IMG/VR virus record: IMGVR_UViG_3300030104_003441
Coordinates: 1 to 64,000 of that record
From: a virus
DNA length: 64,000 bases
Strand: one strand, 5' to 3'
Made by a program: the position numbers and the translations under genes. Under the pieces are notes generated by a model. The model saw nothing but the letters and a program-made list of their open reading frames with translations. It was not told the origin of the DNA and ran no database searches. This document shows positions 57,571-60,806 of this stretch, piece by piece. Positions within the stretch are counted from its first letter, which is position 1, and each line of letters begins with the position of its first letter.

Positions 57571-57635
57571 CTACTCTTCAACATAAAGTCCAGTTAGTTT
57601 AGTGTTTACTGGTAAATCAAATATGAACACTAACA

Positions 57636-57678
57636 TAGTAGTCATGGTGCCGAGTTGTGTTCGATTCACAAGCTACTA
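57636..57678 (+). ncRNA. tRNA-like minihelix (acceptor and T-arm only)
   Basis: TAGTAGT (57636-57642) pairs with GCTACTA (57672-57678), 7 bp with one G-U. Inside, TTGTG and CACAA form a 5-bp T-stem around a canonical 7-nt T-loop TTCGATT. Only 12 nt separate the 5' strand from the T-arm, so there is no D- or anticodon arm. An alternative 5' partner TAGTAGC lies at 57560-57566. Confidence 0.4.
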
Positions 57679-59872: not shown

Positions 59873-60229
59873 ATGAATAAAGAAAATTTACAAACAAAGT
59901 TAGAAGCGCTAGAGGCTAACGTACAAGCAAAACAAAATGAATTAGGTGTTGCTATGTCAGAAGCTCAAATGGCGCGAGAAGAACTAGCTAATGCAGGTAA
60001 GCCTGAATTATCAGCAGACAAGGCTTCAGATCTAGTGGATTTGTTACAAGGTATGTTTCACGATATACTAAATGACTGTGACACTAGCGACCTAAGCCCA
60101 GAGTTCAGTATAGGCTACGATAACACTATCGAACTCGACTGTCTTGACATGAGCAGCATCGAAGTACATAGCTGTGATATCGAGTCTGTACTAGAGCAGA
60201 TATTCAATATAATGCCTGACAATAGCTAG
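59873..60229 (+). CDS. coiled-coil acidic early protein, 118 aa
   Basis: Residues 1-40 form a coiled coil (LQTKLEALEANVQAKQNELGVAM, read in parts); the rest is acidic with Cys-Asp pairs (DCDTSDLSP, LDCLDMSS, VHSCDIESVLE). Starts 1 nt after the zinc-ribbon stop. An acidic dimer could mimic nucleic acid, but nothing specific is seen. Confidence 0.65.
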   Translation: MNKENLQTKLEALEANVQAKQNELGVAMSEAQMAREELANAGKPELSADKASDLVDLLQGMFHDILNDCDTSDLSPEFSIGYDNTIELDCLDMSSIEVHSCDIESVLEQIFNIMPDNS

Positions 60230-60490
60230 TTAAGCACGACGGTGCAAGGTGTAGTAGAGCATATGTTGAAAATATTTCAAACTACTACATAACGGGTCAA
60301 GGTAGTCTACGCTACCGTAATGCCACCTAAAGTAGGACACGGGTAATTACCGTATTAAAGGCAATGACTACGCGTTGATCGCAGGTAGACCTGACGAAGG
60401 TATCGCTGGTTAGGGTAACCGCCAGGACCATTACTCAGCAGCAATTCCGCTGTAAGAGCATGGGTACAAAGCCGGGTCAACGCTTTATAT
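60230..60490 (+). ncRNA. structured non-coding region, likely RNA
   Basis: No frame is convincing here, but foldable elements are dense: TGTAGTAG (60250-60257) with CTACTACA (60282-60289) enclosing TTGAAA-ATA-TTTCAA, GGTAG/CTACC near 60300, GGTAATTACC, CAGG-TAGA-CCTG, GGTTA-GGG-TAACC inside CTGG/CCAG, and CAGC/GCTG. Short motifs GGGTCAA, TGGTTAGGGT and CAATTCCGC occur here and recur in the same order in 60470..60560, as if partly duplicated. Confidence 0.5.
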
Positions 60491-60581
60491 AAGAGTAACG
60501 GTTGGTTAGGGTCTAGTGCAGCTGATCTTAAGGTCAAGCACAATAAGAAACAATTCCGCAGGTTCGATTCCTGCTACTCTT
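60491..60581 (+). ncRNA. tRNA-like RNA with perfect acceptor and T-arm
   Basis: AAGAGTA (60491-60497) pairs perfectly with TACTCTT (60575-60581). GCAGG-TTCGATT-CCTGC (60558-60574) is a canonical T-arm placed immediately before the 3' acceptor strand. The 60 nt between do not give a normal D- or anticodon arm; instead GTGC ... GCAC encloses TGATC-TTAA-GGTCA. The 91-nt length equals a class II tRNA, and TTAA could be read as a Leu(TAA)-type loop, but no 5+7+5 anticodon arm forms. No CCA is encoded. Candidates: divergent tRNA, tRNA mimic, or the relic of a tRNA 3' end. Confidence 0.55.
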
Positions 60582-60620
60582 ACAAACTAAACACGAATAC
60601 TAACGGATAATATTAACATG
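60581..60620 (+). promoter_or_regulatory. early promoter-like element 7
   Basis: TACAAACTAAACACGA, 9 nt, GATAATATTAACATG (proposed +1 G at 60606). It begins at the last base of the tRNA-like acceptor stem (60575-60581), so RNA and promoter are joined. The ATG starts the 62-aa gene. Confidence 0.68.
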
Positions 60621-60806
60621 AAAGACTATATTACACAAGAGCTGTCAATGCTCGATCGTAGCATCGTAGCTACACCACACACCAAAGAAGACCTAGAGTC
60701 TTTTGCTAAAGCAAACAATGGTTGTAGCGATATACTACTTATGCAAATGGCAATGCAATACGGCTATAAGCTAGCATTAGAAAACTTAGAAACAGAATTA
60801 ATATGA
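60618..60806 (+). CDS. hypothetical early protein, 62 aa
   Basis: Start fixed by promoter element 7. Helical and mixed-charge (ITQELSMLDRSIVATPHTKEDLESF, read in parts; LLMQMAMQYGYKLALENLE). Overlaps the next gene by 4 nt. No recognised family. Confidence 0.65.
   Translation: MKDYITQELSMLDRSIVATPHTKEDLESFAKANNGCSDILLMQMAMQYGYKLALENLETELI

Follow-up and report, generated by a model that had tools for sequence, protein, structure and literature searches.

A compact tRNA-like element of acceptor and T-arm, found in phages of unrelated hosts, as a candidate processing cassette

Known tRNA-like RNAs

The enzymes that act on tRNA ends recognize the acceptor/T-arm stack and the elbow. There is a long-standing discussion of tRNA minihelices as the ancestral halves of tRNA, and they have been prepared as substrates for work in vitro. 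In mitochondrial tRNA punctuation and with the mascRNA of MALAT1, the neighboring RNA gets its end from a tRNA or a tRNA-like element; unlike the element described here, these belong to another domain of life and are whole or near-whole cloverleaves. Known cleavage targets of RNase P include phage M3 RNA, the C4 antisense RNA of P1/P7 and plant-virus tRNA-like structures (PMC11143913). M3 and C4 RNAs share with our element a tRNA-like shape within a phage transcript, with cleavage proven there and a cleavage site predicted here, but they are single cases, as opposed to a covarying family across many phages.

Mycobacteriophage DS6A has a TLD-only ("CDS-less") tmRNA, and a molecule of this kind inhibits tmRNA, perhaps via SmpB titration (PMC4131195; PMC11915505). 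The DS6A RNA is likewise an anticodon-less phage tRNA domain with acceptor, T-arm and D-loop, and a sub-class found in relatives of our phage fits the tmRNA model. Most of our elements, however, have neither a tmRNA match nor G3.U70, often have no P2 helix, carry variable acceptors and, in their minimal form of ~42 nt, lie between genes. The 3' tRNA-like structures of plant viruses, with a pseudoknot beside the acceptor, and the bacterial Y RNA YrlA, with its Ro-binding stem and Rsr/Ro context, also mimic tRNA without decoding, but no sequence or model match of either with the element was seen. GOLLD and ROOL lie near tRNAs and their function is not known (PMC12286853); GOLLD (RF02032) is an upstream RNA, not the element itself, and is absent from the locus studied here. 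Among the open-licence papers that we searched, none describes a covarying family of mini tRNA-like phage RNAs.

The tRNA-like element of the window and its upstream RNA

The DNA analyzed (the window) is a 64-kb stretch out of a 66.9-kb IMG/VR virus record. Its portal, terminase and GroEL families relate it distantly to Elemovirus, a genus of Flavobacterium phages, and a structural protein is 37% identical to that of elemo phages; relatives of its TerL come mostly from Bacteroidota bins, with misbinned exceptions. A first-pass annotation had singled out a gene-free stretch of 388 nt as rare in so compact a genome, and both points hold: it spans 60230-60617, between ORFs 59873-60229 and 60618-60806, and the gaps of these genomes have a median of 4 nt and a 95th percentile of 321 nt, as counted, like the ORF statistics below, with a crude gene caller that overlooks starts. 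The perfect 7-bp acceptor (AAGAGTA/TACTCTT) and the perfect canonical T-arm described at the 3' end of this stretch are both there, and the 54 nt between connector and T-arm fold, as it had said, as neither D-arm nor anticodon arm. Tested as a cloverleaf, the element shows no D-arm, anticodon arm or anticodon; the acceptor/T-arm stack and the tRNA-type 3' end are present. The features are collected in Table 1.

Table 1. Positions of RNA and promoter-like features in the window and of related elements in other phage sequences
Feature	Position	Strand	Evidence
H-type pseudoknot CCAGT/ACTGG + TTAGTGTT/AACACTAA, directly 5' of the second element	57590-57633	+	comparison with L004
Second compact tRNA-like element: acceptor TAGTAGT/GCTACTA, connector CATGGTGCCGAG, T-arm 57655-57671	57636-57678	+	T-arm scan
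5' hairpin of upstream RNA, GCAC-GACG-GTGC	60234-60245	+	conserved in L004/L005/L008
Long hairpin TGTAGTAG...CTACTACA	60250-60289	+	predicted fold; conservation partial among relatives
Hairpin GGTAG-TCTACG-CTACC	60301-60316	+	aligned GGTGT...ACACC in L033
Closing helix PX, 5' strand GCGTTGATC	60372-60380	+	pairs with 60475-60483
Closing helix PX, 3' strand GGTCAACGC	60475-60483	+	pairs with 60372-60380
U-rich leader TTTATAT, directly 5' of the element	60484-60490	+	TTTATAT/TTTACAT/TTTTTAT in 6/6 relatives
Acceptor stem, 5' strand AAGAGTA	60491-60497	+	sequence; class covariation
Connector AACGGTT with D-loop-like GG (class consensus AAYGGTT)	60497-60503	+	identical in the 41-nt form of L008
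Hypervariable insert at the place of D-stem and anticodon arm, with hairpin 60516-60541 inside	60504-60557	+	interior identity
Canonical T-arm GCAGG-TTCGATT-CCTGC	60558-60574	+	sequence; strict T-arm scan
Acceptor stem, 3' strand TACTCTT	60575-60581	+	sequence
Discriminator A73 and tail CAA (C74 encoded, no CCA)	60582-60585	+	tail comparison
Promoter-like element copy ACAAACTAAATACGA-N9-GATAATA	60582-60612	+	7-copy repeat
Tag-less tmRNA-like elements, short P2 stub, G3.U70	L065 2980-3060; L067 2982-3062; L077 2288-2368; L072 2045-2124
GOLLD followed by mini element	L166, L184, L195, L221, L234, L244, L258, L268		Rfam match

A clean tRNA or tmRNA match explaining the whole fold had been named as grounds for giving up the idea of a tRNA mimic, a processed stable RNA or a new class of phage non-coding RNA. 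None was found at this locus: ARAGORN reports no tRNA or tmRNA in the whole 64-kb window, Rfam 15 at gathering scores reports nothing there, and in a permissive search the Rfam tRNA model reaches 17.4 bits at the element, for a cut-off of 29. This, together with the covariation described below, supports that idea. A plain tRNA or one with an intron is ruled out, as there is neither an anticodon arm nor an intron family match. So is a full or permuted tmRNA: neither ARAGORN nor Rfam finds a tag reading frame in the window, the insert measures only ~54 nt and the acceptor halves are local, the tmRNA model fitting only the related sub-class. Pair 3:70 of the element is G-C, so the G3.U70 alanine identity is absent. 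GOLLD RF02032 has no match in the window, including in the permissive Rfam search, and there is no Y-RNA among the permissive matches (whether the models searched include YrlA being uncertain). An attachment site is also ruled out, with several copies per genome and both acceptor strands covarying.

The RNA upstream is separate from the tRNA-like element. Its closing helix PX forms 9-12 pairs in each of six syntenic sequences, where changes are compensated across the stem (two of the six have a 2-nt internal loop), and ends 7 nt before the element, and the 5' hairpin reads ACGC-GACG-GCGT in L011 and L033, a covarying change. Of the many short hairpins proposed for the region, the folding signal is weak over the whole (z = -1.8) and better for the 60370-60492 domain (z = -3.0); a single upstream fold across the 388 nt was rejected on that whole-region z and on a 5' half too variable between relatives. 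A pattern search retrieved no homologues of the upstream module besides the known contigs, and a terminator scan no intrinsic terminator on the + strand of the region. The repeated motifs are present, at 60294/60474, 60407/60503 and 60442/60551, and mildly above chance (three repeated 9-mers vs 0.44 expected, reached in 18/500 shuffles), but the duplication they had suggested is not needed: it is real but weak, and the copies of TGGTTAGGGT and CAATTCCGC sit in non-conserved interiors. The pairs 60407/60503 and 60442/60551 lie in stretches unconserved among relatives and therefore explain little.

The promoter-like element adjoins without a gap, as had been noted: the ACAAAC with which it opens is also the discriminator base plus tail of the tRNA-like structure. 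The motif ACAAACTAAATACGA-N9-GATAATA occurs seven times on the + strand of the window (56894, 57263, 57678, 58263, 59623, 60582 and 61736), with none expected by chance; the copies precede start codons and it is probably a phage promoter or leader. Two of them have as their first letters a tRNA-like element's discriminator and tail.

An exchangeable slot and a widespread mini element

Comparison with syntenic phages defines the unit. In L008 the element is only 41 nt long (TAAGAGTAACGGTTAGT-GCAGG-TTCGATT-CCTGC-GCTCTTA, i.e. acceptor, AACGGTT and T-arm), so that the window copy is the same unit with an insert just after AACGGTT. L004 carries a different insert at the same position, whose identity to that of the window is 0.61, for a shuffled level of 0.57, compared with 0.96 at the T-arm end and 0.87-0.89 in the flanking genes. 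Likewise, among the orthologues L083, L084 and L085 the interior is 0.38-0.47 identical, the T-arm 0.96-1.0 and the downstream gene 0.96-0.98. In L033 the same slot, after the same helix PX and a TTTTTAT leader, is occupied by a bona fide tRNA-Arg; its occupant is the tRNA-like element in the window, L004, L005 and L008, and a G3.U70 version of that element in L011. The TTTATAT-type leader is alike before tRNA-like element or true tRNA in the six relatives. The Elemovirus isolate elemoF has a true tRNA-Met and no such element in the 50 kb examined.

A slot common with a true tRNA, in a tRNA-bearing region of these phages, could point to degenerate, functionless genes left over from a tRNA cluster. 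This reading is strongly disfavored, as relics do not lose everything else and yet retain, across many phages, 11-12 covarying pairs together with GG connector and tail, and L083-L085 preserve acceptor and T-arm around a random interior.

The second element of the window is preceded by an H-type pseudoknot, the second stem of which is TGTATGTT/AACATACA in L004; pseudoknots of this type have a T-arm after them in 15/15 cases (this one and 14 others). Other neighbors were seen in further phages: L002 and L003 have a common sequence GAGGGCTGCAGTATGACGTCTGCAAG... 3' of the element, possibly another structured RNA, and L058, L065 and L066 have just 5' of it a hairpin module, GGTGACT-CATC-GAACC...CTGATGAG, whose stem changes compensate each other (CTCATC/GATGAG, CTCACC/GGTGAG, CTATCC/GGATAG).

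Strict T-arms (a 5-bp stem and GTTCRANYC) were counted over 813 kb of the window and its relatives. The gene strand carries 123, the opposite strand 3 and dinucleotide-shuffled DNA 1; two are in the window (57655 and 60558). An ORF of at least 100 aa contains just 1 of 103. A 6-bp acceptor partner followed by GG is found within 110 nt for 64 of the 79 non-tRNA T-arms, vs a mean of 6.2 (maximum 11) when the acceptor is borrowed from another element.

We then scanned IMG/VR with the pattern AAYGGTT-N7-GTTCGATTC, which leaves the stems unspecified. Among the matches listed, the T-stem is complete in 117/123 sites, and of at least 106 nonredundant sites, kinship of sequences being handled by removing duplicates only, 86/106 have a perfect 6-bp acceptor, vs 1.2 (maximum 5) in swapped-strand controls, with at least 60 different acceptor 5' strands among the perfect ones. 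Pair 7:66 is usually unformed, hence an acceptor of 6 bp. In two alignments of sites among the matches listed, covariation is 1.07 and 1.10, vs 0.24 and 0.25 in shuffles, and drops to 0.08-0.23 when the partners are slid; a paired acceptor was the condition for entry into both alignments, so the figures free of this bias are 86/106 and the number of complete T-stems. Note that the AACGGTT connector is invariant in A6/A7 because the motif was part of the search pattern. The covariation check proposed at first pass thus turned out strongly positive for acceptor and T-stem, in the relatives as in the virosphere-wide sample, and covariation above shuffles together with the 86/106 acceptors (among the matches listed) indicates a structure under selection.

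All features of the mini element are present at 60491-60585: a 6-bp acceptor, AAYGGTT, the T-arm GTTCGATTC and an N-C tail. Against model R2 (the E-values of models R1 and R2 are rough) only the T-arm of this copy matches, with 19.3 bits, its acceptor-to-T-arm spacing being 60 nt vs a connector of ~10 nt in R1 and R2; it is classed as an expanded variant because its L008 orthologue matches R2 over the full length, with 42 bits. The unit is a ~42-nt element of many phages, of which the window has a version with a ~54-nt insert.

Among the matches listed, hosts of the mini element range from Bacteroidota to Mycobacterium. L227 (78,296 bp) matches the Mycobacterium phages MaryV, Azrael100, EniyanLRS and Cosmo, and MaryV, a cultured mycobacteriophage listed as Wildcatvirus, carries mini elements. 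With stricter filters, the R2 search over 201 bacterial genomes of the host families gave one weak match (28 bits), so that the class looks phage-borne; R2 matches occur in 14 of 16 chosen phage records. The minimal form is, on this sequence evidence, a widespread phage RNA. On the - strand of L170, six near-identical mini elements lie ~150-200 nt apart (928-1777), separated by AAC-rich spacers that look unstructured.

Placement and a possible role at transcript ends

Among the matches listed with flanks, 0/66 mini elements lie inside a same-strand ORF of at least 80 aa, and the gene that follows runs the same way in 55 cases vs 9. In MaryV, each of the two copies has a stop codon directly on its 5' side and, on its 3' side, a hairpin, a Shine-Dalgarno sequence and an ATG. 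The annotated starts of MaryV genes 130 and 141 fall inside the mini elements (L272 2115-2157 and 5065-5108, - strand; ~66162-66204 and ~69112-69155 in MN585992.1); the ATG beyond the Shine-Dalgarno sequence is the likelier true start.

In all eight GOLLD loci searched, GOLLD ends 5-10 nt before a mini element, these loci having been found via the element itself; the Rfam match is full length in seven, L195 stopping at a contig end 6 bits below the cut-off. The phages concerned carry large tRNA arrays, and a full tmRNA in four. Two independently found GOLLDs were inspected by eye: a tRNA-like sequence with acceptor and T-arm follows 18 nt on in Acinetobacter phage vB_AciJM_313 and 11 nt on in a 635-kb metagenomic phage. 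These post-GOLLD sequences are unannotated and degenerate (L273 ~1361-1440, L274 ~1616-1710).

The ends of the elements resemble those of tRNAs. The 3' tail is discriminator-C[AT]A in 83/84 elements, as it is for almost every true tRNA that these phages carry, and C74 is encoded in 55/55 host-type Bacteroidota tRNAs. In the window's phage group, G at -1 occurs in 0/59 elements and 0/18 tRNAs and position -2 is A-rich in both; in the wider set, among the matches listed, G at -1 occurs in 15/106.

With tail, leader, acceptor/T stack and GG kept, the features read by RNase P and 3' processing are conserved and little else. As the best reading we propose that the element is a cassette for cleavage by RNase P and tRNase Z that would set transcript ends, to which we give a probability of 0.52. 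It is favored by the true tRNA-Arg that occupies the same slot in L033, by the intergenic placement and by the adjacency to structured RNAs (GOLLD 8/8, pseudoknots 15/15). The element is the "top half" of a tRNA, a 6-7 bp acceptor stacked on the T-arm with a tRNA-type 3' tail, in which the GG of the short connector may dock in the T-loop and build a tRNA elbow; in the window genome the neutral ~54-nt insert takes the place of the missing arms. The element lies just 5' of the next gene and borders the structured non-coding RNA 60234-60483 on its 3' side, and host tRNA-maturation enzymes would take it for a pre-tRNA. An RNase P cut after 60490 would leave the upstream RNA with a defined 3' end, protected by its closing helix, and tRNase Z or related 3' processing after discriminator 60582 would free the downstream mRNA; the gain for the phage would be that its transcript ends are set.

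Three observations count against this cassette. A 6-bp acceptor with 7:66 mostly unpaired is a departure from the standard RNase P substrate, the six copies of L170 are more what one would expect of an abundantly produced RNA than of a punctuation mark, and a sub-class with G3.U70, part of which scores as tmRNA, points to a possible separate function in some members.

The last two also bear on the main rival, which we consider unlikely: a stable mimic of a tRNA or tmRNA domain that would itself titrate a host factor, like the TLD-only tmRNA of DS6A, with SmpB, EF-Tu, a tRNA-modifying or CCA-adding enzyme or a tRNA-targeting defence toxin as candidate targets. The L170 array suggests dose. The ~80-nt elements of L065, L067, L072 and L077 match the tmRNA model from end to end but for a missing mRNA part (51-66 bits, cut-off 47) and are apparent tag-less tmRNAs in Elemovirus-like phages; G3.U70 is found in every listed member of the wider sub-class while 4:69 covaries, in a search whose pattern fixed U70 and allowed A3; one MaryV element matches the tmRNA model weakly (18 bits); and inhibition of tmRNA by a TLD-only molecule has been reported (PMC4131195; PMC11915505). 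However, the window elements have no tmRNA match, acceptors that vary almost limitlessly imply no common aminoacyl identity, and a decoy needs no fixed position at gene stops, pseudoknots and GOLLD. It is this regular position, with the lack of G3.U70 and of a tmRNA match in the 60491 element, that keeps the estimate low.

The constant pairing of pseudoknot and element and the adjacency to GOLLD would also be expected if upstream RNA and element stayed joined, the latter being a 3' terminal tRNA-like domain that protects the end or recruits host proteins, for which plant-virus 3' tRNA-like structures are a precedent. We regard this as improbable, since neither the interchange with a true tRNA-Arg nor the elements placed directly after a coding gene need a joined upstream RNA. 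Finally, the 3' end often lies 2-60 nt before the next start codon and, in the window, overlaps the promoter-like repeat, as a 5'-UTR switch or attenuator with a tRNA-like fold might; widely varying distances, several copies in tandem with true tRNAs at short spacers and no alternative pairing seen with the start site make such a switch very improbable.

There is a real chance that the mini element, a tRNA-like structure, deserves a class of its own. More tentatively, and with odds somewhat against it, the genome-encoded ~42-nt minihelices (acceptor, GG connector and T-arm) may be an undescribed "cut here" class of RNA in DNA phages of unrelated hosts, which would divide polycistronic transcripts and form the 3' ends of GOLLD-like RNAs. 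The latter would explain why GOLLD lies next to tRNAs, and the cassette reading thus offers a testable reason for that closeness. A natural, covarying and widespread family of phage minihelices would in itself be a surprise. MaryV grows on the laboratory strain Mycobacterium smegmatis mc2 155, where the question of cutting is open to test; if the cutting role is true, phages would use host tRNA-maturation enzymes for their transcript ends, as animal mitochondria do.
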